Shown here: piece by piece, positions 6,583-21,512 of the stretch
How the letters are laid out: every line of letters starts with the position of its first letter
Position numbering within the stretch: position 1 is the stretch's first letter
Origin: a virus
Strand: one strand, 5' to 3'
IMG/VR virus record: IMGVR_UViG_3300036820_000070
Coordinates: 1-22,316 of that record
DNA: 22,316 nt
Translations under genes and position numbers: made by a program
Notes under the pieces: model-generated
Seen by the model: only the letters and a program-made list of their open reading frames with translations
Database searches by the model: none
What the model was told of the DNA's origin: nothing

Positions 6583-8667
6583 TCAAGCGCCCGCGTTGAA
6601 CACGGCCGCTCGAAAATCTTGGAACGCCACGCCGAAGTCGAAGAACGACCGCCATTGCATGCCGAGCGTGTTGAAGTCGGTTTCGCCCGATTCGATCACC
6701 GGCGTGCCCTGCCCGCGGAAGTAGGCGATGCTCATCGCCGCCACGTCTTCCGGGTCCGCGAACAGATACCAGCCCGTGGCGCTCTGGTTGGTGATCCCCT
6801 GGGCGTTCAGGTAGTGCGACGACACCGGGGTGAACTTGCCGGCGTGCGGGTTGTTGGCCGGCACCATCTTGCTGTTCGCCGGCACCTGCAAGATCGTCGA
6901 TTCCTTGTAATACCGCTCGGAGATGACCTTGAGCGTCGTGGGGACGAGCATGATCGCCGGGCTCAATAGCACCGGGTTTCCTGCCACGTCGACTTGGTTC
7001 AGGAACGCGACCTCGGCCGCCGTGATCCCATCGAGATCGAGCGTCGAAGTGCCGCCCGACAGATAGTTTGCATTGGCGGTCGAGAAGAACTGGTTGCCGC
7101 CAATCGTCGGGTTCGAGAGCAGCAGTGTGAACACGGCCGATTCAACGGCCAGCGCTCCTTGCCGCCCGAGCAGACGCGGAATCTGCAAGAACGCCCCCAG
7201 GTCGTCATTGATGATCTGCTGCCGCGTGAGCGCGATCAGACGGCCGTAGGTGTCGAGCTGGTTGGTGTACGACTCTTCCGACAGATTGGTCGATTTGAGT
7301 TCGCCGTCCTGGCCAACCTTCTCGAACATGCCGTTGGCCGTGAGGCGGTAACGCGAGAACGCTTTGAAATCGACGGCGTCGGTCGTGTCGCAGAACGTGT
7401 TCGAGACGGTGTTGACCGCCTCAAACGATTTCAACAACTGCTTGTTCGCCAGGTTACTGAGAATGCCGGGCAGGCTGATCGTCGAGAATTCGCCGCCCGA
7501 TGCTTGGATCGTCCGATCGGCCTCGAACGCCGCGCGGATCGTGTCGTTGTCGACCTTGCCCGGCCGGACGTAGCGGCCCGCGGCCCGGATCACTTCGTAC
7601 ATCAGGCTGTGGATCGTGGCCCCGCGAATGTCGCGCGAGCGGGCCGCTTCCAGCACACGGTCGCCATACCACTTCTCGACCGACTCTTCGCCGAGGCCCG
7701 CCGAGAGGCAGAGCGACGCTTCGAGCGCGACGGATGCGTTCACGTGCGCCAACCCGCCGCCAGCATGGATCGCCGGGCCGGTAGGACGCGATGCCCGCAG
7801 GACTTCGAGTTCGGTGCGCGTTTCGTCCCAACCTTCGGAGACGGCCTTGGCCGCGATGTCGGCGTGGCTGCTTGCCGCTTTGCGGATCGCGGCGATGCGG
7901 TTCATTTCCGCGGCGGTCTTGGTACGCAGGTCGGCGACGGGGTCGGCGTCCGCCGTCGCGGTAACGGTTGTCGGCGCGGCAGTTTTCTGCTCGGCGTCGA
8001 ACGCCGCCTCGAGCGATGAACGCTGCGTCTCGCTCAATGCCGCGCAATCGAATCCCTTCGCGCTAATCCAGTCCTCGAACTTCATGGTCATTACCTCGAT
8101 TGATTGAGCGGCGGCGGAAGCCACCATCCGGGCACTCGTTTGGTCGTCGGCCCCCAGCGCCACGAACGACACCTCTCCGAGCGTCGCCTGACGCGCGACG
8201 TAGAGCGGACCCGCGAAGGACCGCCCGTTGACTTGGACGCGTTCGCCGTCCTCGACGAACACCATCTTCTGGACGCTCGCGCCGATGCTCGCCTGCCAAG
8301 GAAAACCGTTGTCGGAGCTGGCGACGATCTCGCTTGCGTGGGCGTTGGCTCCAGAAACCGAGCCATCGACCTTCAGCACGCCACCATTGACGGTCACGTT
8401 GTCGGTGTGGCCGACGATCTGGCTCGGGTTGTGATCGCGGAGAATCGGCCGCGACTTGGCCGAGACCCGCATGCCCGACATGTCCACGACGACCGGATAC
8501 GGGATATTCGGCAGCGACATCTTGCCGCCGGTGTAAGCGGTGATGGAGAACTTGCGGAGTTTCTTGGCGTCGCCTTCCCCTTCCGCGGCCAGCACCAAGC
8601 GGCCGGCGTCTTCATCGCGCCCGCAACTGATCGTGATCTGGCTGGGGAGTTTTTTAATTGTCTTCAT
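6583..8667 (-). CDS. Prohead protease-major capsid protein fusion (694 aa)
   Basis: ATG at 8667 with GAGGAGG upstream, overlapping the portal stop by 14 bp. Residues about 1-190 form an HK97-type prohead protease: His79 in 'RDHNPSQIVGH', Ser127 in 'FPWQASIGASV', and the closing 'LGEVSFVALGADDQT'. Residues about 195-290 are a charged, helical scaffold-like segment. The remainder (about 290-694) is a major capsid protein of the HK97 fold group, with 'TIQASGGEFSTISLPGILSN' and a C-terminal 'YFRGQGTPVIESGETDFNT' region. Protease, scaffold and capsid are separate genes in many phages. An internal start at 8085 could also supply the scaffold-capsid part alone. Confidence 0.85.
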   Translation of the reverse strand: MKTIKKLPSQITISCGRDEDAGRLVLAAEGEGDAKKLRKFSITAYTGGKMSLPNIPYPVVVDMSGMRVSAKSRPILRDHNPSQIVGHTDNVTVNGGVLKVDGSVSGANAHASEIVASSDNGFPWQASIGASVQKMVFVEDGERVQVNGRSFAGPLYVARQATLGEVSFVALGADDQTSARMVASAAAQSIEVMTMKFEDWISAKGFDCAALSETQRSSLEAAFDAEQKTAAPTTVTATADADPVADLRTKTAAEMNRIAAIRKAASSHADIAAKAVSEGWDETRTELEVLRASRPTGPAIHAGGGLAHVNASVALEASLCLSAGLGEESVEKWYGDRVLEAARSRDIRGATIHSLMYEVIRAAGRYVRPGKVDNDTIRAAFEADRTIQASGGEFSTISLPGILSNLANKQLLKSFEAVNTVSNTFCDTTDAVDFKAFSRYRLTANGMFEKVGQDGELKSTNLSEESYTNQLDTYGRLIALTRQQIINDDLGAFLQIPRLLGRQGALAVESAVFTLLLSNPTIGGNQFFSTANANYLSGGTSTLDLDGITAAEVAFLNQVDVAGNPVLLSPAIMLVPTTLKVISERYYKESTILQVPANSKMVPANNPHAGKFTPVSSHYLNAQGITNQSATGWYLFADPEDVAAMSIAYFRGQGTPVIESGETDFNTLGMQWRSFFDFGVAFQDFRAAVFNAGA
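8085..8097 (-). promoter_or_regulatory. Internal ribosome-binding site inside the protease-capsid gene
   Basis: On the - strand GAGG (8097-8094) is followed by eight bases and then an in-frame ATG (8085) at codon 195. The protein from there begins MKFEDWISAKGFD, which looks like the natural N-terminus of a free-standing scaffold-capsid protein. This could yield a 500-aa product in excess over the protease-bearing form, as internal starts do in lambda C/Nu3. Confidence 0.6.
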
Positions 8668-10141
8668 CGCTGCCGACCTCCTCGGGTTCGACTTCGCCCG
8701 GATCGTGCGCCGGAGCTGGCGCGGGCACTGGCGGTTGCATGGTGGTCGGCACCGGAACCGGTAGGCCGAGTTCCTCCATCAACGCGATCTCTTTGGCCCG
8801 TTGCCGGAGCGCCTCGGCCCAATCGCGCCCCTCGCGGGCGTATTCATGCGCGAGCGTGGTGGTGTGATTCGCCAGCCGCGTTTGCTGCGCGGTCGCTTCC
8901 TTGAGCGGATCGACGTGTTCCGTGCCGTCCCAAAACCACTGGAAAACCCAATCGGAGAACGGACCCATGCCGGGCGGAATCAGACCGGGAATGAGCGCGG
9001 CCTCATCGAGCCAGGCGAAGAAGATGCGATTGAGCGCCGTGCGTTCGAGATACGTCTGATCGACGCGGATCGCCTTGTAATAGACCTGGTGATCGAGCCG
9101 ACCGGACGCATAATTGTAGGATGCCGAATTGCCGGCAGCGACGTTGAACGGCATGTTCAGGCAGCGAGCGATCTCGTTCAGGATTTCCTTCTTGAACTCG
9201 GCGTAAGTGGTCGCCGGCTGCTCGGCCTGCAGCTGGCTCATCTTCCAGCCGCCGGGCATCGTCAAGAGCGCCCGCTTCTCCAGTTCGATCGGCTCGAATG
9301 GTTCGGCAGCATCTGCTTCCCCGTTGGCCGGCGCATCGGTGTAGAGGATGCCGGCGAAATCGGCAGCCGTCTCGGCGGCGGCAATCACCGCCAGTGTGAA
9401 ACGCCGTAACTGTGCGAACAGCGGCAGCGCGGCCATGATCTCCGGAATGCCGCGATGCTGGCCCGGCCGGTCGGCGCGGAACAAGTGAATCACCTGCGAG
9501 GCCGGCACTCGGTCGAAATCCCAAGGGTTCACGACGACAAACTGGCTGCCCGGATGCTCGCGCAGCACATGGTACTCGACCGGGTTGTTGTAGACGTCGA
9601 AGACGATGCCATCGACGAACCGCAGCGACGGCGTCAGCAGAATGGGCGTCGTCACCTGATCCGCCTCGACCAACCGCAGGTCGAGCTTCACCGGCGTCGG
9701 CAGCTTCGGATTGGTGACGTACAGCGCGAACGCCTCGCCATCCTGCGTTCGGGCGCAACGCATGGTGCGGAGCTTGCCCGTCAGGTCCACGGCAGTCGCC
9801 CATTGGCGAAAGGCCCTTTCGATCTGCTTGTTCGCAGCCGGGTTCGGCGTCAGCATTTGCAGACGCGGGCCGGTGCCGATCACGTCGTTGGCTAGAGTGT
9901 TGACGATTCCGCGGGCGTAGCTGTTGTTGGCGACCTCGTACCGCGACCGAATCCGCAGGTTCCGGCGGACGAGCAGGTTGTTGGCGGCGTCGGGGGCCAA
10001 TGCGTCGGCGTTGATCCAGTGGCGACGGTTGTCGTCCGTCGTCATCGCGGCGTCGTAGCGGGCCCGAACGATCCGCGCCGGCCGCGACGTCGGAGGCGAT
10101 GCCGGTTCGGTACGGACCCAGTTCTTGAGCCAGCCAATCAT
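8654..10141 (-). CDS. Portal protein, lambda gpB type (495 aa)
   Basis: ATG at 10141 directly abuts the TGA of the upstream 65-aa gene. The sequence has the hallmarks of lambda-type portals: 'RARYDAAMTTDDNRRHW' near the N-terminus, 'NNSYARGIVNTLANDVIGTG', 'QDGEAFALYV', 'IHLFRADRPGQHRGIP' and 'LNMPFNVAAGNSASYNYASG'. Length is typical. The C-terminal tail (about 460-495) is Pro/Ala-rich and acidic. The portal forms the dodecameric DNA channel at one capsid vertex and docks the terminase. In lambda-like order it follows a small gpW-position gene, as here. Confidence 0.95.
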   Translation of the reverse strand: MIGWLKNWVRTEPASPPTSRPARIVRARYDAAMTTDDNRRHWINADALAPDAANNLLVRRNLRIRSRYEVANNSYARGIVNTLANDVIGTGPRLQMLTPNPAANKQIERAFRQWATAVDLTGKLRTMRCARTQDGEAFALYVTNPKLPTPVKLDLRLVEADQVTTPILLTPSLRFVDGIVFDVYNNPVEYHVLREHPGSQFVVVNPWDFDRVPASQVIHLFRADRPGQHRGIPEIMAALPLFAQLRRFTLAVIAAAETAADFAGILYTDAPANGEADAAEPFEPIELEKRALLTMPGGWKMSQLQAEQPATTYAEFKKEILNEIARCLNMPFNVAAGNSASYNYASGRLDHQVYYKAIRVDQTYLERTALNRIFFAWLDEAALIPGLIPPGMGPFSDWVFQWFWDGTEHVDPLKEATAQQTRLANHTTTLAHEYAREGRDWAEALRQRAKEIALMEELGLPVPVPTTMQPPVPAPAPAHDPGEVEPEEVGSDEDN

Positions 10142-10829: not shown

Positions 10830-11501
10830 ATGGACGACGCCGCGATAAGAACTGCTCTCAAGCTGCGGCTCGCGACTGAGCATGCCGGCGAGGATGCGCT
10901 TATCGTCGACGAACTGGGGCTGAATGAAGGTGAGGCCCGTGTCGATCTCGCCGTTGTTAATGGGGCTTTGAATGGCTACGAAATTAAGAGCGATCTCGAT
11001 ACGCTCAATCGATTGCCAAATCAAAGAGATGTGTACGGCGAATTCTTCGACACTGTGACCCTCGTGGTTGCCGAAAAACATCTAAAATCGGCAAAGGCCC
11101 AAATCCCCGAGTGGTGGGGCATAATTGTGGCGACCACCTCAGGCGAAGATGTTCTCTTGCACAGCGTGCGTGCGCCCACGCCAAACGAAGGGGTCAGTGC
11201 GAGCGCAGTCGTCAAGCTGCTTTGGAGAAGCGAATCCGTTGCCATCTTAGAATCGCTCGGAAGGCTTCGCGGGCTTCGCAACAAGTCGCGCGACCATCTC
11301 TGGTTCGCGATCACCGCCAATTGTCCTCCAGACGAAGTCAAGCGTCTCGTTCGAGAGCAGATCAAAGCCCGGGGTGATTGGCGATCTGCCGCACGACGAA
11401 GGTCAAATGATGATTCGTCCCGACTTGTCGCCAAGTCGTTGCACTCCCCGGTCCGTCAGCGCCAGTTGCACAATCATCAATATATCGATCCCCTGCACTG
11501 A
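10830..11501 (+). CDS. sce7726-family protein, PD-(D/E)XK nuclease-like (223 aa)
   Basis: The protein starts MDDAAIRTALKLRLATEHAG and continues with 'VDELGL', 'ARVDLAVVNG' and 'YEIKSDLDTLNRLPNQ', the signature I know from the sce7726 family. Asp39 and Glu51-x-Lys53, with Glu28 upstream, form a plausible PD-(D/E)XK nuclease core. The family usually ends near 'GDWRSAARRRS' (about 182-192); here about 30 more residues follow, read antisense through the end of the beta gene. It converges on that gene and overlaps it by 140 bp. The pairing of sce7726 with a beta/sce7725 protein is known from other genomes. Function is unproven; nuclease activity and a defence role are inference. Lower GC and opposite strand mark it as cargo. 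Confidence 0.8.
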   Translation: MDDAAIRTALKLRLATEHAGEDALIVDELGLNEGEARVDLAVVNGALNGYEIKSDLDTLNRLPNQRDVYGEFFDTVTLVVAEKHLKSAKAQIPEWWGIIVATTSGEDVLLHSVRAPTPNEGVSASAVVKLLWRSESVAILESLGRLRGLRNKSRDHLWFAITANCPPDEVKRLVREQIKARGDWRSAARRRSNDDSSRLVAKSLHSPVRQRQLHNHQYIDPLH

Positions 11502-12447
11502 AATCTCTCCCGCTGTACTCGGGCAACGCACGCAGGATTCGAGCGAGGCCGGGATATTGGCTTGGTTGCCCCTTCGTGATTACTCGTCCCCTGACAACGA
11601 TCCATTCAACGTCGTGTGTATATCGAATATTGGCCGTCATTTTGATAATGCGAAAGTCGAGCGACGCGTATTCAGGATTTGAAATTGCGTAATCTGAAAA
11701 CGCCGGCCTCCGACGCATTTGGCCAGCGGCGATCAGCGATGTCCAGACATTCCATTCAGTGCGCGGAATCGCCTGTGTCGTTCCCGTCGCAATCTGCCTT
11801 AGGTCGGTCGGAAAAGCACTTCCCGAAACCGTCAATGATCGCCACTGTGCTAGGTAAGGGAGTGCGTTCACATAGGCCGGAATCACCATAACGTACTGAG
11901 CTTCAAACTGCGGGTTCATCGGCCCGAGGTCGATCACCAAATCGACTTGCTCTGGACGCACGTTGAAATTCGCAAGAATGCCATCAATTTGGTTCGGTAG
12001 GTTTGGCGTCGCGGCAATTTCAGAAGCCAAGACGCGAAGACACATGCCACGTTGATCCGCTTGAATGATTTCGTGCGTCGCGGCTTGATAGGCGGGGTCA
12101 CGGCCCAACCCGGTTACAGGAACGAGTTGGAGCTGCAGTTGCCTTGCCTGATTGAAAATATGAGATAGCGGGTGGAGTCCACTCGCTGTCGTCCCTTCGT
12201 TGGCAACGGGGTACGCATCCAAGTAGGCACGCTGACTTCCCCAATGCTTTTGGAGGTTATCAGCAACCGAAGCGATCTGCTCATCCAGAGTTTTCGCTGG
12301 AGCTTCGTTTTCGTAGTCCCAGTCAATCGGCGGAACTTCAAGCAGGGGAGTGAGGCATGATTTTACATCCGATGCAAGCTCTCGAATCGCTCGAAGTTCT
12401 CCCATCTTCGCTGTCAGAATCGGCAAGTAATGCTTATGGTCCAACAT
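11362..12447 (-). CDS. T4 beta-protein / sce7725-family protein (361 aa)
   Basis: Start set at the ATG at 12447, not 12456, because GAGG is eight bases before 12447 and abuts the earlier ATG; the protein then begins MLDHKHYLPILTAKMGE, as family members do. Other family features are 'LTPLLEVPPIDWDYENE', 'VDLVIDLGPMN', and the C-terminal 'TNHHLTFVVRQIANH'. The biochemical role of the family is unknown. Its partner sce7726 lies downstream on the opposite strand with overlapping 3' ends. A promoter lies directly upstream. Codon use is more AT-rich than in the flanking phage genes. Together the two genes form an inserted cargo between terminase and portal. Confidence 0.82.
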   Translation of the reverse strand: MLDHKHYLPILTAKMGELRAIRELASDVKSCLTPLLEVPPIDWDYENEAPAKTLDEQIASVADNLQKHWGSQRAYLDAYPVANEGTTASGLHPLSHIFNQARQLQLQLVPVTGLGRDPAYQAATHEIIQADQRGMCLRVLASEIAATPNLPNQIDGILANFNVRPEQVDLVIDLGPMNPQFEAQYVMVIPAYVNALPYLAQWRSLTVSGSAFPTDLRQIATGTTQAIPRTEWNVWTSLIAAGQMRRRPAFSDYAISNPEYASLDFRIIKMTANIRYTHDVEWIVVRGRVITKGQPSQYPGLARILRALPEYSGRDFSAGDRYIDDCATGADGPGSATTWRQVGTNHHLTFVVRQIANHPGL

Positions 12448-12480
12448 ATATTTCATCCTCGGAATTTGATTAAAGAGCCA

Positions 12481-12563: not shown

Positions 12564-12746
12564 TCACCCAATTGCCCGTTCCCAGGTCGTTAAACGTTGA
12601 CCACAGTCTAGACATTTGCGTCTGCGGACGATCCTTTCGCCGGTATATGGTCGTGTATAAACGACGGAAAGGCTGCGGGAGCCACAATGCCGACATCGCA
12701 AACCGCGATCACAATCCGAAACCGGACGCTGGCTGGACTTGTTCAC
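12564..12746 (-). CDS. NrdR-like zinc-ribbon protein (60 aa)
   Basis: The GTG at 12746 overlaps the terminase stop as GTGA and is preceded by AAAGGAGG at ideal distance, so I prefer this start over a longer frame back to 12911. The product has a CxxC pair (RCRHCGS), then 'YTRPYTGERIVRRRKCLDCG' containing the second CxxC, then 'QRLTTWER'. This closely resembles the zinc ribbon of the transcriptional repressor NrdR ('IRRRRECxxCxxRFTTYER') without the ATP-cone. It probably binds DNA through zinc. Roles could be in packaging, given its tight coupling to terminase, or in regulation of late transcription, as small zinc-finger phage activators (Ogr type) do. Confidence 0.8.
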   Translation of the reverse strand: MNKSSQRPVSDCDRGLRCRHCGSRSLSVVYTRPYTGERIVRRRKCLDCGQRLTTWERAIG

Positions 12747-15010
12747 GTCCGTTGCCTCCTTTGAATTTCCGCAAAACTGACTCGCCTGCGCGGAGTCACG
12801 AACTTCCCGTCCGTGCCGGGCAATATCGCGCCCTGGATTGACGCGGCCACCGCACAACCCACCAAGCCATCGAACCAGTGGTTGTCGCCACGCTCGGGGC
12901 GCAATTTCCATTCGTCGACCGTGCGACCACGACCCTCAGTCTTCACCCGATATTCGGAGGTAACGTGGTCGGCGTACAGGCGGTGCTGCTCAGCCTTGTC
13001 TCCAAACAGCGATAGGCAACCACGGTCGCCCATCGGCACGACCAGTCGGGCATGCACGAATGACTTCCAGTAGTTCGTGTCAAACAGCGCATGGCGAATC
13101 GCCCGCTTTCCCTGCACGTTTGGAATCCGCCAGTTGTGCCCGAGGCGGTCGCCAAGCTTGCGTTTGTAATCCGAGAATGGTTGGCTCGACGCGCCGACGA
13201 ATCGACCGTGGCTGGGCATGACCACGCCCGCATGCGACGACTGGCGGCAGAATTGATAGACGACATCCGTCGATGATCCCCAGTTCGCGTCGATCAAACA
13301 GCGCTCAATTCGCAGCGCCGCCCCATCGTCCCGGAGCCATTCGCGGCCGAGACAAGCGTTGGTCAGTGCCTCGAGGCCCGCATAGATCGAGCCTTCCAGG
13401 CCAGTCCCTTTTGTAGCGGCCGCCAGCGTGATCCGAGCGTCGCGGAGCGTGAAGTACGGCCGCTTCTGATCTGGAAACGTCCCGTAATCGACAACGTAGC
13501 CCGTGAAGTCGTCCTCCCAGGCCGCGACGACGAAGAACAGAAGCGTGGCCTGAATGTCGATGAACATCGTCAAGTGGTTACACCCGATGGGTATCACGGC
13601 GCGTCGCAAGCGATTCACCTTCGACGCGATCTGGTCGGCCGTGAGCTGGTCGCTATCCGCGTCGTCTTCGACCAAGGGTTCATTCTGGTATTCAGCGAAG
13701 AACGCGGCCTCGTCCTGCAGCTTGAGGTTCATCGCGTGCTGGATGGCCGACAGTTCGTCGTAATTGAACCGCTCGGGCCACGCGATCACCGCCCCCTCGT
13801 CCATCGCAGCGCGATTGGCACGATAGAATTCGGTTGCCTCGTTGCCGCCGTTGCCTTGGCGCATGCTCTCGGCGCGGATTTCGGCGTACTTCGCCCACAG
13901 CTTCTCGTCAGCCGGGAACGAATAGACCATCTTGGTCCGCTCGCCGTTCCACTCCGGATGCTTGTCCCGGCTCAAGATGTTGTCCGCCATGTCGCTGGGT
14001 CGAATCACGGTGCAGGGCATGATGCCGGAGATCTTCTTGCCCGGCCCCGCCAAACCTAATATGGCTCCGGCCAGGATGCTTTCTCGCGTCGCACATTGCG
14101 ACAACGAGCGGGCCGATTCGTCGGTCTGCGGATCGTCGAGGACCACGAGCGTCGGACGCACGGTGCGGCCGTCGGCTCGCTTGTACTTCATCCCGCGAAC
14201 GCGACCGGTGATTCCGGCGACCTTGATGATCGCGCCGCTGGCCGTGCTTCCCGGCATTGTTGGCAACACGACCTCGCGAGCGGTCCAACCGATGTGCGTC
14301 CGGTCGCCGTTGTAGAGCTGACCGTTGCAGCGATTGGCAATTCCGTCGAGGCTCTGAATCGGATAAACGACCTCGGGAAAATCCCCTAGCAACAGCTCGT
14401 TGCCGTCGAGTTCCATTTTGATGGACTCCAGCATGTCCATCGCGTGGGCTTCGTCCGAACCGATTAAGCAGACGAACTCACGGTGCCCGTTCAGCACTGC
14501 CCAGATGCACGCGCACTCGCAGATCGTCGTCTTGCCCGACCCGCGCGGCATGGCCATCGCATACAAGCCGCCGCGAAGCACGGCCTGTTCGATTCGGGCA
14601 ATAACCTTTAAATGGTCGGGCGACCACGGCAAGTGGAAGGTCAGCGGGAAATACGCTTCGCAGAAGAATCGAAAGTCGGACGCCGCCCGCGCTTTGCGAT
14701 CTGGGTTCACGACCGCCGGCAATTCGCCGATATCGCGCCCGGCAATGGCCAGGGCGACGTTCCGCGCCCGTGCGCGATCCTTCATCCGCTCGTAGGGATC
14801 GCCGTCCGCTTCGGGCCTCGGCTCGTTGCGGACCTGGACGAGCCACGCGACGTAGCGCAACAGGTCGACGTGCCGCGCATCGCCGATCCGTAGGCCAGCC
14901 CGCGTGCGATGGCGATGCAGTTGCCGCTCGTTGATCACTTCCCCCAGCGGGGTCGAGTTCAGCAAGCGACACAGTTCGCTCGGTCGTAAGGTGCGGGGAT
15001 CAGTCGCCAC
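12743..15010 (-). CDS. Terminase large subunit (755 aa)
   Basis: Packaging motor with ATPase and nuclease parts. Walker A is 'MPRGSGKTT' (154-162) and Walker B 'LVVLDDPQ' (288-295). The C-terminal nuclease has Asp485 in 'TMFIDIQ', a later Asp in 'CLIDANWG' and the closing 'DNHWFDGL'. At 755 aa it is longer than usual because of an N-terminal region (about 8-62, RPSELCRLLN to YVAWLVQ) that resembles the preceding 70-aa protein and may be a helix-turn-helix-like DNA-binding domain fused to the motor. The start overlaps the stop of that gene by 11 bp. The end overlaps the zinc-ribbon gene by 4 bp. Terminase, small head protein, portal is the lambda-like order, here interrupted by cargo 1. Confidence 0.92.
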   Translation of the reverse strand: MATDPRTLRPSELCRLLNSTPLGEVINERQLHRHRTRAGLRIGDARHVDLLRYVAWLVQVRNEPRPEADGDPYERMKDRARARNVALAIAGRDIGELPAVVNPDRKARAASDFRFFCEAYFPLTFHLPWSPDHLKVIARIEQAVLRGGLYAMAMPRGSGKTTICECACIWAVLNGHREFVCLIGSDEAHAMDMLESIKMELDGNELLLGDFPEVVYPIQSLDGIANRCNGQLYNGDRTHIGWTAREVVLPTMPGSTASGAIIKVAGITGRVRGMKYKRADGRTVRPTLVVLDDPQTDESARSLSQCATRESILAGAILGLAGPGKKISGIMPCTVIRPSDMADNILSRDKHPEWNGERTKMVYSFPADEKLWAKYAEIRAESMRQGNGGNEATEFYRANRAAMDEGAVIAWPERFNYDELSAIQHAMNLKLQDEAAFFAEYQNEPLVEDDADSDQLTADQIASKVNRLRRAVIPIGCNHLTMFIDIQATLLFFVVAAWEDDFTGYVVDYGTFPDQKRPYFTLRDARITLAAATKGTGLEGSIYAGLEALTNACLGREWLRDDGAALRIERCLIDANWGSSTDVVYQFCRQSSHAGVVMPSHGRFVGASSQPFSDYKRKLGDRLGHNWRIPNVQGKRAIRHALFDTNYWKSFVHARLVVPMGDRGCLSLFGDKAEQHRLYADHVTSEYRVKTEGRGRTVDEWKLRPERGDNHWFDGLVGCAVAASIQGAILPGTDGKFVTPRRRVSFAEIQRRQRT

Positions 15011-16630: not shown

Positions 16631-17944
16631 TCACGTCGCGACCTCCTTGGTGGCGATCCGTTCTGCCTTCCGCCCCGTGAACTTCTCCCATCGCTGCACG
16701 ATGACATCGGCGTATAGGGCGTCGAGTTCCATCAAGAACGCCTTGCGGTCCGTTTGCTCAGCAGCGATAAGCGTCGAACCGCTGCCCCCGAACAAGTCCA
16801 GCACATTCTCGCCGGGCCGCGACGAATACTGGATCGCCCGCACGGCCAACTCGACCGGCTTTTCGGTCAAATGAATCATCGACTGCGGGTTGACCTTCTT
16901 GATCGACCAGACGTCGACGGCGTTGTTCGGGCCGAGGTAGAGGTGCGCCGCTCCTTCGCGCCAACCGTAGAAACACCACTCGTGGTTCCCCATGAAATCT
17001 TTCCGCGTCAGCACCGGGTGCTCCTTGACCCAGATGATGGCCTGCGAGAAGTACAATCCCATTGCCTTCAGCACCGGCGGATAGTTGCCGCAATTCGCGT
17101 ATCCGCCCCAGATGTAGAAGCCGCGCCCAGGCGCGAGAACGCGGGCCATGTTCCCAAACCACGCCGCCAACAATTGATCGAACGCCTCGTCGGTGACGAA
17201 GTCGTTCGCCAGCGGCCGGTCCTTGGCGCGAAGCTTTTTCTGTGTTGGCTTCGACTTCTTGGGGTGGCGGGCCAGATCGAGCGACTGGTGATGCTTTGGT
17301 CCGGCAAATGAGCTTAGGCCGGCCGCGATGGCGTTGTTCGAGCGCGGCTCGACCTTGACGTTGTAAGGCGGGTCAGTGTTCACGAGATGGATCGTCGCAC
17401 CGTCGAGCAGCCGGTCCACATCTGCCGGCTTGCTGCTGTCGCCGCAGAGCAAACGGTGGTCACCGAGGACCCATAGGTCGCCCGGCCGCGTGGTCGCCTC
17501 GTCGGGCGGGGCCGGCACTTCGTCCGGATCGCAGAGCCCGTCATTCAAGTCGCCGTTGAGCAGCTTGGCCAATTCGTCCTGGTCGAACCCAAGCAGGCCG
17601 AGGTCGTAGTTCGCTGCCTGGAGGTCGGCCAATTCGATCGGCAGCAGGTCAAGATTCCATTCGGCCAGCTCATTCGTCTTGTTGTCGGCGATGCGGTAGG
17701 CCTTGATTTGCTCGGCCGTCAGGTCTTTGGCGACGTGGACCGGCACTTTTTCCAGGCCTAGCTTCTGCGCCGCCTTCCAGCGAGTGTGGCCAACGATGAT
17801 CACGCCGTCGGTATCTACAACAATCGGCTGGCGAAAACCAAACTCGCGGATCGACGCGACGACTGCGTCCACGGCGTCGTCGTTGAGACGCGGGTTGTTG
17901 GGATACGGCTTGACCCGCGGTAGCCGCCACAGTTCGATCTTCAT
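16631..17944 (-). CDS. ParB-like nuclease-fold domain / beta-class DNA methyltransferase (437 aa)
   Basis: Start at 17944 (MKIELWRLPRVKPYPNNPRL) because GAGGTG lies seven bases upstream; 22 extra residues in the longer frame look non-coding. Residues 1-110 form a ParB/sulfiredoxin-like domain ('GFRQPIVVDTDGVIIVGHTR', then 'WKAAQKLGLEKVPVH' and 'KAYRIADNK'). Residues about 156-430 are an N4-cytosine/N6-adenine methyltransferase of the beta order, with catalytic 'NTDPPYNV' (189-196) ahead of the SAM site 'LDLFGGSGSTLIAAEQ' (382-397). A basic insert (about 200-245) may contact DNA. This two-domain architecture is common in phages as a solitary methyltransferase that protects phage DNA or modifies host sites. 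No cognate nuclease is adjacent. Confidence 0.92.
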   Translation of the reverse strand: MKIELWRLPRVKPYPNNPRLNDDAVDAVVASIREFGFRQPIVVDTDGVIIVGHTRWKAAQKLGLEKVPVHVAKDLTAEQIKAYRIADNKTNELAEWNLDLLPIELADLQAANYDLGLLGFDQDELAKLLNGDLNDGLCDPDEVPAPPDEATTRPGDLWVLGDHRLLCGDSSKPADVDRLLDGATIHLVNTDPPYNVKVEPRSNNAIAAGLSSFAGPKHHQSLDLARHPKKSKPTQKKLRAKDRPLANDFVTDEAFDQLLAAWFGNMARVLAPGRGFYIWGGYANCGNYPPVLKAMGLYFSQAIIWVKEHPVLTRKDFMGNHEWCFYGWREGAAHLYLGPNNAVDVWSIKKVNPQSMIHLTEKPVELAVRAIQYSSRPGENVLDLFGGSGSTLIAAEQTDRKAFLMELDALYADVIVQRWEKFTGRKAERIATKEVAT

Positions 17945-18255
17945 CGGAGCGCACCTCGAGCACAGGGTTATGTGCTGGTGGCTCCGAGATGCGGAGTGCG
18001 GCCCCGGCAATCCAGGACGGCGGGCAGACGAACCAGAGACCGTCTACCACTTGATCAGGCTGCAGAAATTCTACCGCAATAAGGGCGTTTCGTCACGTCG
18101 ACCGATCCTTAATTCAATTTGCCGCGTCCTTCACTACTTGCGAGCAGCGTTGGCGAAAGATAGCTTACGGAAGTAGCTGAATCATCCACCAAAATCACGA
18201 TGAAAGAACTAACGGGTGGAGCTGACTGGCAGCGCTTTTTGCAAGGGCTGATGGG
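17945..18255. other. Divergent intergenic region between methyltransferase and PP2C operon
   Basis: This 311-bp stretch separates the leftward phage block from the rightward PP2C-kinase operon. The first 45 bases hold a strong hairpin in the methyltransferase leader (listed separately). GC falls from about 18060 onward, marking the start of cargo 2. I see no consensus promoter for the PP2C operon; the best candidate (TTGCGA, 17-bp spacer, TAGCTT near 18139-18167) is weak. No gene is evident. Confidence 0.45.
17946..17985 (-). promoter_or_regulatory. Leader hairpin sequestering the methyltransferase ribosome site
   Basis: In the - strand transcript three helices stack: 5+4+6 bp (17985-17981/17950-17946, 17980-17977/17955-17952, 17976-17971/17964-17959) with a 1-nt and a 3-nt bulge and a 6-nt loop. 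The inner arm contains GAGGTG, the Shine-Dalgarno of the gene, and the hairpin ends two bases before the ATG. No U-tract follows, so it is not a terminator. It may be a translational control element. Confidence 0.55.
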
Positions 18256-19371
18256 ATGGATCTTGAGACTAATTTTAACCGTGCAGGGCGTTCGACGCTT
18301 GAGAACCAACTATCGACTTGGTTCATGCGCCGCACGGCTGTCAATGGTGTTCGTCGTGTTGCGAGCGTCTTTGCGGCGGTCGCAACTGACGTGGGGGGGG
18401 TGAGAAGCGAGAATCAAGATCGTCTGGCGATCGCCCGCATTCGTGACCGCACGGGACGTGCATTCATATTGGCAGCACTGGCAGATGGGATGGGGGGAAT
18501 GCGAGAAGGCGCTGAATGCGCTGCGACGACGCTAGCTTGTCTGATTGGAGGAATTGCTGAACGAGCGCAGGCGAGCGACGTACCTCGAGATTGGCTCTTG
18601 CATTCTGCGTCTGTTGCAAACGTCAGGCTGCACGCGAAATTTAAAGGTAAGGGAGGCTCGACGCTTTCCACGATCCTGGCCAGTGGAACTGGTGACGTCT
18701 GCTGGTTGAGCGTCGGCGACAGTCGCGTCTATGTCACCGAGGGGAAAAAACTAACACAAATCTCGGTGGACGACACGATTGCCGGACAACTCGCATCACC
18801 GGCTCAGTTAGGGCCCGATCATTCAAAGCTGCTGCAATACGTAGGTATTGGTGAATCACTGGAGCCGCACATCGATCAATTTCAGATCACTGTTGGAAAC
18901 TCAATACTTCTAACATCTGACGGCGCTCATTACCTGCCGTCGCAATCAAATCTGTTTGGTCTGATTGTAGAGCATGCAGCTGATCCTGGCACGTGCGTTC
19001 ACAGATTGGTGGAATTATCAAAATGGAGCGGCGGCGCTGACAACGCGAGCGCTGCAATGGTGACTTGGGAAGCTGGATCAGGGAACGAAACCAGACAAAC
19101 GCTACCAGCCTTAGAAGTATGGGACCCATTCGGAGAATTGCAGATACTTTGGCAAGTATCTCCGCGCGAAGCACCGCAGGAACGTGTGGCTCCTGTACCT
19201 CCGCCGGACATGAAGAGAAAACCACCTAATAAACAACCGGGGTCGAGTAACAAACGCCGTAGTCGAGGTGGGCACAAAGTTAAGCCAAAGCCGCAACCGC
19301 GGCGAAACGATTCGGGCGGGGACGAAGTTCCTCAGCTATTGATTGAGTTCCCCAATAAGAAGGGGACTTAA
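18256..19371 (+). CDS. PP2C-family Ser/Thr protein phosphatase with basic tail (371 aa)
   Basis: All metal-binding PP2C motifs are present: 'RSENQDR' (50-56), 'ADGMGG' (76-81, Asp77), 'GSTLSTI' (134-140), 'VGDSRVYV' (153-160), 'TSDGAH' (220-225) and 'GADNAS' (260-265). It should therefore be an active Mg/Mn-dependent phosphatase removing phosphate from Ser/Thr. The catalytic domain ends near residue 272. The tail (about 310-371) is Pro/Lys/Arg-rich (KRKPPNKQPGSSNKRRSRGG) and ends in a hydrophobic 'PQLLIEFPNKKGT', perhaps a nucleic-acid or kinase docking segment. The start has AAGGG about 10 bases upstream. The stop is three bases before the first kinase. The likely role is to keep the two kinases silent until triggered. 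Confidence 0.9.
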   Translation: MDLETNFNRAGRSTLENQLSTWFMRRTAVNGVRRVASVFAAVATDVGGVRSENQDRLAIARIRDRTGRAFILAALADGMGGMREGAECAATTLACLIGGIAERAQASDVPRDWLLHSASVANVRLHAKFKGKGGSTLSTILASGTGDVCWLSVGDSRVYVTEGKKLTQISVDDTIAGQLASPAQLGPDHSKLLQYVGIGESLEPHIDQFQITVGNSILLTSDGAHYLPSQSNLFGLIVEHAADPGTCVHRLVELSKWSGGADNASAAMVTWEAGSGNETRQTLPALEVWDPFGELQILWQVSPREAPQERVAPVPPPDMKRKPPNKQPGSSNKRRSRGGHKVKPKPQPRRNDSGGDEVPQLLIEFPNKKGT

Positions 19372-19374
19372 CAC

Positions 19375-20430
19375 ATGCTTTTACCAGACAGATACCAGGT
19401 TGCGGGCGATGCGCTTGATGGCGGCATGGGGTCAGTGATCCCTTGCAAAGATACTGTGCTTTCGCGTGACGTCGCAATTAAAGTACTCCAAAGTGGGACG
19501 GAGCACCGCCGCATTCTGGATGAAATCGCTGCGCTGTTGAAGATGAGATCCAAGCACGTGGTTCAGGTATACGACGTACTTGACCTGCCTGGCGGTAAAA
19601 TGGGAATCGTGCAGGAGTTCATTGAAGGCAAGGATCTGCTCAAACGCGCAACGATTGCAGCATCTAAGGCGGACTACTACAAGCAGCTGTGGCAGATCGC
19701 TTCAGGGATCAGTGATATTCATGCGGTTGGCGTGATTCATCGTGATATTAAGCCCAATAATATGAAGATCGACCCAGAAGGCGTAATTAAGATATTTGAC
19801 TTTGGATTGGCACGTGATGAGGGTGAAGATGCGGCAACAGCAGGTTTTATTGGGACTCATGGCTTTGCGGCACCAGAACTCTACAAGGGCTCGGTTAGTT
19901 TCACGAAGGCTATCGATACATACGCGTTTGGTGCCACCGCTTACTTTCTAGGCGCACGCCTTCTTCCAGCTAGCTTGCGCAATAAGCCTCCTACCCCTGT
20001 CAAAGCCGACTGTTTTGACGACTTGCCATTTGAATTACCGCCGGACATCTCGTTTGCACTACATGGTTGCCTCGCACATGATCCCAGAAAAAGACCGCAG
20101 ATGAGCGATGTCAGGGACATGCTTGCTCGGCACCTGCTGGCGGGCCGGCACAAAGCCTTGCTGGTATATAATGGTAGTCCAAACTATTTGAACGCAGACA
20201 ATCGATCCGTGAATCTTAGGCTTAAAGGAATGGGCCAAATAGAGATTAGTTACGACGATTTGGATTATCGAATTGTTAGCGTAAGCGGGGACGTCGCCAT
20301 CAACAATCGGATCGCGTCGGCTGGTGACGTATTGCCTGGTTCATGCGTGATCGCTCTTGGCAGTCCGGCTATGAAAGCACAGCGCCGGTACATTACGTTT
20401 GATTTGTCGCATCCGGAGATTGTGCTATGA
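19375..20430 (+). CDS. Ser/Thr protein kinase 1 with C-terminal beta-rich (FHA-like?) domain (351 aa)
   Basis: The Hanks-type kinase domain spans about 6-255: ATP loop 'ALDGGMGSV' (13-21; first loop Gly replaced by Leu14), Lys36 in 'VAIKV', alpha-C Glu50, catalytic 'HRDIKPNN' (122-129), 'FDFG' (141-144), 'APE' (166-168), Asp181 and Arg240. It should be active. Residues about 258-351 are a separate all-beta region (ALLVYNGSPNYLNADNRSVN, then 'VSGDVAINNRIASAGDVLPG' and 'CVIALG', ending 'RRYITFDLSHPEIVL') whose 'NN..I..GD.L..G' pattern recalls FHA domains, which bind phosphothreonine. The start has AAGGGGA upstream. The stop overlaps the next start as ATGA. There is no transmembrane segment, so it is cytoplasmic. 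Confidence 0.88.
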   Translation: MLLPDRYQVAGDALDGGMGSVIPCKDTVLSRDVAIKVLQSGTEHRRILDEIAALLKMRSKHVVQVYDVLDLPGGKMGIVQEFIEGKDLLKRATIAASKADYYKQLWQIASGISDIHAVGVIHRDIKPNNMKIDPEGVIKIFDFGLARDEGEDAATAGFIGTHGFAAPELYKGSVSFTKAIDTYAFGATAYFLGARLLPASLRNKPPTPVKADCFDDLPFELPPDISFALHGCLAHDPRKRPQMSDVRDMLARHLLAGRHKALLVYNGSPNYLNADNRSVNLRLKGMGQIEISYDDLDYRIVSVSGDVAINNRIASAGDVLPGSCVIALGSPAMKAQRRYITFDLSHPEIVL

Positions 20431-21512
20431 GCGGGACCTTGGAGGTAGGCGACGTCGTGGGTGATCGATACGAGATTCTTCAGTATATCGGCGAAGGTGG
20501 TATGCAGTTTGTTTATGCTGCTCGAGATCGAACTGCGGGCCGTCGAGTAGCGCTGAAGACGCCCAAGAATAAGTCGGCTACCAAGCGATTCAAAAGGAGT
20601 GCAATCGTCGCTGCAAAGGTCAATCACCCAAATGTTGCGAAAACGCTTGACTATCTCAAGGTGGGTGACCAACGGTTCTTGATCGAAGAGTTGATAGAAG
20701 GTGAAGACTTGGCCAAGGCGCTGCTTCAGGAATCAAGTTTTTTGGATCCTTATCTGGCAGCAAAAGTGTTTCATCACCTCGCAAAGGGAGTGGCGGCTGC
20801 ACATCATGCGGGTGTTGTCCACCGAGACCTAAAGCCGACAAACGTCATGATAGTCGGTGGTTATTCGATCGATGAGTTGAAGGTCACCGACTTTGGAATT
20901 GCCAAAATGGCGGAAGAAGAATTAGAAGCAGCTGCCGAGGGAGGGACCGCGACACTCACGACATCGCAAACTGCCGTCGGCGCGCTTCCTTACATGGCTC
21001 CGGAGGCGATTGAGTCCCCAAAAGAGGTGACGTCAGCGGCGGATACTTGGTCGCTAGGTGCAATGATGTTCCATTTGATGGCGGGCTCGCCGCCGTTTGG
21101 GAGCGGTCTTAAGGCGGTGAAGGCAATTCTGAACGCTAATGAACCGTCAATTCCTCCGTTTGTGACCAAGAATCCCCAGTTCGCTCCACTAGCAACTGAA
21201 ATTATGACATTGGCTTTGTCGTGTTTGAAAAAGGAACCCGGAGAGCGTCCAACAGCCGATGATTTGGTGAAAAGCTGTGAAGAACTCTGTTACACGTCAT
21301 CCCGACGCAGGACTGGCGTCGTTGTAAGGTTCGACTTCGGTGCATATGGGTTTATCAATGATGGCGGAGGTGATACGTTTTTTCACAAGGGCAGCGTGTA
21401 CGGACCCGAATGTCCAGGCAAAGGCGATCGGGTAATGTATTCAAGTTTTGACGGTGGCGGAGCGCCGCGTGCGCATCCGGTTGTAAAACTAAAGCCTAAC
21501 GCAACTGCGTAA
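20427..21512 (+). CDS. Ser/Thr protein kinase 2 fused to a C-terminal cold-shock domain (361 aa)
   Basis: Kinase domain about 15-285: 'IGEGGMQFVY' (21-30; last loop Gly is Gln), Lys44 in 'VALK', 'HRDLKPTN' (132-139), 'TDFGIAK' (154-160), 'APEAI' (191-195) and Arg274. The alpha-C position aligned to the usual Glu appears to be Ser58, so activation may depend on a partner. Residues 296-358 are a cold-shock/OB-fold: 'TGVVVRFDFGAYGFI' with RNP1-like 'GAYGFI' (305-310), 'DTFFHKGSV' (316-324, RNP2-like), then 'GKGDRVMYSSFDGG' and 'PVVKLKP'. That domain normally binds single-stranded RNA or DNA. The gene is coupled to kinase 1 by ATGA. A nucleic-acid-sensing kinase is the obvious hypothesis. Confidence 0.88.
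   Translation: MSGTLEVGDVVGDRYEILQYIGEGGMQFVYAARDRTAGRRVALKTPKNKSATKRFKRSAIVAAKVNHPNVAKTLDYLKVGDQRFLIEELIEGEDLAKALLQESSFLDPYLAAKVFHHLAKGVAAAHHAGVVHRDLKPTNVMIVGGYSIDELKVTDFGIAKMAEEELEAAAEGGTATLTTSQTAVGALPYMAPEAIESPKEVTSAADTWSLGAMMFHLMAGSPPFGSGLKAVKAILNANEPSIPPFVTKNPQFAPLATEIMTLALSCLKKEPGERPTADDLVKSCEELCYTSSRRRTGVVVRFDFGAYGFINDGGGDTFFHKGSVYGPECPGKGDRVMYSSFDGGGAPRAHPVVKLKPNATA

Follow-up and report, generated by a model that had tools for sequence, protein, structure and literature searches.

Near one end of the 22.3-kb linear IMG/VR virus record analyzed here (IMGVR_UViG_3300036820_000070, 22,316 nucleotides, referred to as the window), a phosphatase gene and two protein kinase genes lie in tight succession, and an earlier note on this DNA proposed them as a candidate new phosphorylation-based defense system. 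Are they one? Judged from sequence, the operon is a new intact copy of KKP (kinase-kinase-phosphatase; PfkA-PfkB-PfpC), not a new kind of system. KKP was published and tested in 2024 as a tripartite toxin-antitoxin and antiphage module of the Pseudomonas prophage Pf6 (Guo et al. 2024, PMC11341870), which settles the candidate as a known system. With high confidence, we take the operon to be KKP cargo of a temperate phage that probably infects Planctomycetota; the kinase pair would be the toxin and the phosphatase the antitoxin.

Three intact reading frames occupy positions 18256-21512 on the plus strand, coding for a PP2C phosphatase (1116 bp), a Ser/Thr kinase (PfkB, 1056 bp) and a cold-shock-domain kinase (PfkA, 1086 bp). 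The phosphatase and first kinase genes are spaced by 3 bp, and the two kinase genes share a 4-bp ATGA overlap. Tens of other loci have this gene order, mostly with the identical 4-bp overlap, so the arrangement is not a product of chance. GC content is about 0.51-0.54 in the operon versus 0.62-0.65 in the phage backbone (about 63% overall), and promoter and terminator scans around the operon returned chance-level signals only. The features of the operon are as follows.

18256..19371, plus strand: PfpC-like PP2C Ser/Thr phosphatase, 371 aa, putative antitoxin (NCBIfam Stp1, motifs, synteny)
19375..20430, plus strand: PfkB-like Ser/Thr kinase with beta-rich, remotely FHA-like C-terminus, 351 aa, putative half of the toxin (PF00069, motifs)
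20146..20427, plus strand: C-terminal domain of PfkB, aa 258-351, probably divergent FHA-like, beta-rich (hhalign against FHA profile)
20427..21512, plus strand: PfkA-like Ser/Thr kinase with C-terminal cold-shock domain (CSD), 361 aa, putative half of the toxin (PF00069, CSD)
21312..21488, plus strand: cold-shock/OB domain of PfkA, aa 296-354, GFI motif (Pfam match, alignment)

The phosphatase matches the Stp1/IreP family of PP2C proteins in NCBIfam (E 5e-28) and keeps every metal and phosphate motif intact (NQD, DGMGG, GDSR, DD, SDGAH and DN); it scores below the threshold of the Pfam PP2C models. It is the least conserved of the three proteins, at 25-50% identity to its homologues. In E. 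coli NDM2 (L003, NZ_CP083887.1, 613-1778; also NZ_CP083886.1), the PP2C gene is split or annotated as hypothetical, although the KKP kinases do not differ from those of other strains. If that strain has really lost the antitoxin, harm would be expected; a sequencing error, or kinases tolerated at their native expression level, are the alternatives.

Both kinases carry a PF00069 domain (E 7e-35 in PfkB and 5e-48 in PfkA) with intact GGM, HRD and DFG motifs, and their predicted structures have a pLDDT of 93 and 92, respectively. At the C-terminus of PfkA, aa 296-354 give a weak cold-shock match (PF00313, E 0.009, below the curated cut-off) with a GFI motif at aa 308-310; the domain is detected in 25 of 65 PfkA homologues, with a best E of 1e-9. 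Over its full length, PfkA is 54% identical to the homologue in an E. coli P2-like element and 55% to that on a Rhizobium plasmid, with corresponding values of 46-48% for PfkB.

The C-terminal domain of PfkB was compared with FHA by profile. The Pfam FHA model (PF00498) had no match at E 0.1 in 63 PfkB proteins, namely that of the window and 62 homologues found at the equivalent place with 34-64% identity to it. Against a reference profile built from 11 FHA domains of the genomes searched in this analysis, the domain scored 22.6 in hhalign (P 0.0013, with a probability of only 18%). All of 200 column-shuffled FHA alignments scored lower (maximum 16.8, mean 10.8, sd 1.8), as did the reversed FHA alignment (13.1) and a CSD alignment (12.2). 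Since its score lies above these three kinds of control, the domain is probably a divergent FHA domain with an only remotely FHA-like fold, although SxxH, which belongs to the FHA signature, is absent in 43 of 45 PfkB proteins. Searching the PDB with a sequence profile of the domain gave no convincing match, and the matches obtained by Foldseek and VIA-align with the whole PfkB model, and by Foldseek with the PfkA model, were kinase domains only. The earlier description of the locus, as tightly coupled genes of lower GC than the backbone encoding a complete PP2C, a kinase with a beta-rich C-terminus and a second kinase with a cold-shock or OB domain, is confirmed.

An alignment of six PfkA proteins, searched against 84,980 species genomes and IMG/VR, returned 78 genome loci and 14 viral loci, with a convincing PfkA in 74 and 13 of them. 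By profile searches, the PP2C-PfkB-PfkA triplet is complete in 64 of the 74 genome loci and in all 13 viral loci; of the ten incomplete loci, five run into the end of their contig and in the other five the upstream genes are broken or partial. In 67 of 78 loci the PfkB and PfkA genes share exactly 4 bp, and the highest identities to the window are 71% for PfkA, 64% for PfkB and 50% for PP2C. A scan of viral contigs with a single PfkB sequence gave no match. The same triplet is found in a Klebsiella Peduoviridae phage, an E. coli P2-like element and plasmids of Xanthobacter, Agrobacterium and Rhizobium. Related copies also lie on conjugative plasmids, and several adjoin other defense genes: ABC-three-component (ABC-3C) genes on the Agrobacterium and Rhizobium plasmids, a Shedu-domain gene, type I restriction (RM) genes, and a pair of OLD-TOPRIM ATPase and UvrD helicase genes that we read as Gabija-like. 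Both the co-occurrence of the three genes and their mobile or defense-associated surroundings agree with the module anticipated by the earlier note. One KKP clade is present in 14 of 5,426 complete E. coli genomes; E. coli 15EC039, whose KKP was tested previously (PMC11341870), was not identified among the matches found.

Some individual loci depart from the usual setting. On the Xanthobacter plasmid (L004, 7059-8405), an IS5 element separates PP2C from a PfkB whose start is truncated. A Verrucomicrobiales MAG (L008, 747-7071) has KKP after a recG-like gene and before REP-associated-transposase-like and PIN-domain-like genes, families named from reading the sequence, and this copy apparently sits outside a prophage. 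A further triplet is in a contig binned as Aenigmatarchaeota (L042, 219-3546), an assignment that is likely a binning error.

The left and middle of the window form the minus-strand late region of a lambda-type tailed phage, in which cement protein and tail tube genes are also present. The features used to place the operon are listed below.

6583-8667, minus strand: capsid, in the late region
8654-10141, minus strand: lambda-family portal, in the late region
10830-12456, between terminase and portal: second low-GC cargo, with an sce7726-family gene on the plus strand (PADLOC cll) and a Beta-protein gene on the minus strand (PADLOC PD-Lambda-2_C)
12743-15010, minus strand: GpA-type terminase, in the late region
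16631-18010, strand opposite to the operon: ParB-DNA methyltransferase fusion, adjoining the terminase region
18036..18255, no strand: upstream cargo boundary (blastn)

A near-identical phage (L100, capsid 96% identical) has neither the KKP operon nor the second insert. Its blastn homology to the window halts at 18035, about 220 bp ahead of the PP2C gene, and where the window has KKP and the methyltransferase it encodes a sigma-70 region 2 protein (58-1080) and a Fic/DOC protein (1785-2942) on its minus strand, the Fic protein taking the place of the methyltransferase fusion. As this close relative carries other genes there in place of the operon, KKP is cargo at a variable site. At the second insert, whose two genes overlap tail to tail by 140 bp, the homologous blocks of L100 are only about 190 bp apart. 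The earlier note had put the operon in a cargo position next to a putative attachment site; the cargo position holds, and the attachment site is a possible reading of a tRNA-like 3' half at the contig end (22248-22305), which scores 20 bits with the Rfam tRNA model, below its cut-off, and by eye resembles Arg(TCT).

The window capsid has matches in 63 of 392 Planctomycetota genomes, with up to 57% identity over its length; elsewhere identity reaches at most 41% in Verrucomicrobiota and, among the best-scoring matches, at most 35% over partial length in Pseudomonadota. A 3.84-Mb planctomycete contig holds a prophage with the same gene order as the window, with identities of 69% for the ParB-methyltransferase (L148 5120-6493), 70% for the terminase, 66% for the portal and 54% for the capsid, and with primase-like and helicase-like genes, as read from the sequence, upstream of the methyltransferase. 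From the capsid matches and this syntenic prophage, the phage host is probably a planctomycete, placed to phylum level. KKP is not present in the 19 kb read of the syntenic prophage, and a search for KKP PfkA at E 1e-60, which recovered three known-positive genomes, found none in the 392 planctomycete genomes. None of 294 planctomycete genomes contained the tRNA-like 3' piece when up to one mismatch was allowed. The PfkA tree groups the window, with a support of 96, with proteobacterial copies and one Verrucomicrobiales MAG, a position among proteobacterial copies which suggests that the operon was probably acquired horizontally. The range of KKP is widened to an apparent planctomycete phage and a Verrucomicrobiales MAG.

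How the operon would act can be read from the published module. Neither KKP kinase is toxic alone; jointly they phosphorylate themselves and many host proteins. PfpC undoes this phosphorylation, and its binding and modest inhibition by T4 Gp59 tip the infected cell to growth arrest (PMC11341870). KKP protects P. aeruginosa from phage, and four of four KKPs from other prophages protect E. coli (PMC11341870). According to work cited in PMC13048266, a second trigger is the degradation of PfpC that RepG4, a protein of Pf4, sets off. The window copy retains every catalytic motif that this cycle needs and may well run it; from the published behavior we infer its toxicity, antitoxin role, trigger and defense. 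The two kinases, jointly and not singly, would phosphorylate themselves and many host proteins that serve replication, translation, transcription and division, so that growth stops, and the phosphatase would reverse this as the antitoxin. Upon infection by another phage, a protein of the invader would block or deplete the phosphatase, the kinases would prevail and the cell would arrest before the invader completes its cycle, amounting to abortive infection or superinfection exclusion. The same kinase-phosphatase balance may also tune prophage gene expression in the lysogen. The mobile abortive module sketched in the earlier note, with a phosphatase restraining kinases, fits KKP very well; its relay from nucleic-acid sensing through two kinases in series does not, as KKP needs both kinases together and the trigger found is T4 Gp59 (PMC11341870). 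A more speculative and rather doubtful extension is that KKP works in Planctomycetota, a phylum without a known member, with different poisoned proteins and a different phage trigger, and that the degenerate PfkB FHA domain licenses PfkA by docking it and does not read phosphothreonine. The poor conservation of this 'FHA' domain makes it a testable question how the two kinases license each other.

The module might instead serve mainly to regulate lysogeny, of its own or a co-resident prophage, and not to defend against lytic phages. The Pf6 KKP of P. aeruginosa acts on the silencer MvaU by phosphorylation and governs the production of Pf4/Pf6, to which later work adds control of the PfiAT antitoxin (PMC13048266). 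We still regard a mainly regulatory role as unlikely, given that relatives outside phages adjoin defense genes with no prophage needing control and that all four KKPs from other prophages defended E. coli, while the two roles are not exclusive. The kinases could also act in the phage's own lytic growth, phosphorylating host proteins in the manner of T7 gp0.7. The position in a phage genome adjoining late genes and the broad targets of the published kinases would suit such host-takeover cargo, which is nonetheless very improbable for an operon that co-encodes a phosphatase, lies on the strand opposite to the late genes, is missing from the near-identical L100 and has plasmid and chromosomal copies.

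Least of all do we expect a TerY-P-like module (vWA, PP2C and OB-fold kinase) whose vWA gene was lost or was never there. TerY-P and TerY-P-like triads share with the window a PP2C and a Ser/Thr kinase, with an OB fold in some members, as well as an antiphage role that is predicted for the window, and TerY-P-like modules whose kinase is fused to an OB fold are known to act against phages on their own (PMC11090510); the earlier note was right that such a kinase may carry an OB-type domain. However, TerY-P has a vWA protein and one kinase, whereas the window has a second kinase and no match to the vWA model PF00092 anywhere, in a search that was positive in 13 of 14 control genomes. The operon is flanked by the opposite-strand ParB-methyltransferase and, downstream, by no recognized gene. 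TerY-P is excluded by the missing vWA gene, and the conserved triplet (64 of 74 loci) has exactly the layout of another published family. Stk2 of Staphylococcus and PD-T4-6 likewise defend through Ser/Thr kinase activity, but are single kinases without a partner kinase or phosphatase, unlike this three-gene operon. Stk2 is excluded on gene content, and the separation from TerY-P and Stk2 drawn in the earlier note stands. Defense-profile searches with PADLOC gave mad6, PD-T4-6 and PglW as the top kinase matches, which reflect the generic kinase fold and not membership. The module was not named by the PADLOC 2.0, Pfam or NCBIfam scans, so further copies of KKP will go on being taken for new kinases, and the identification made here helps their annotation.

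Over 1200 KKP clusters have been reported, filtered for PP2C-Pkinase-Pkinase order with genes of 900-1300 bp, mostly from Proteobacteria and also from Cyanobacteria and Bacteroidetes, with a GFI/A-motif cold-shock domain on PfkA and an FHA domain on PfkB (PMC11341870). The window copy differs in its probable host phylum, Planctomycetota, which is beyond that stated range, and in a PfkB whose FHA domain escapes Pfam; this probable host and the doubt on the FHA domain are what is modestly new. In common with KKP, it has the PP2C-kinase-kinase order on one strand with gene lengths within 900-1300 bp, the GGM, HRD and DFG motifs of both kinases, a cold-shock domain with GFI on the last kinase, a catalytically intact PP2C and a location in a phage.
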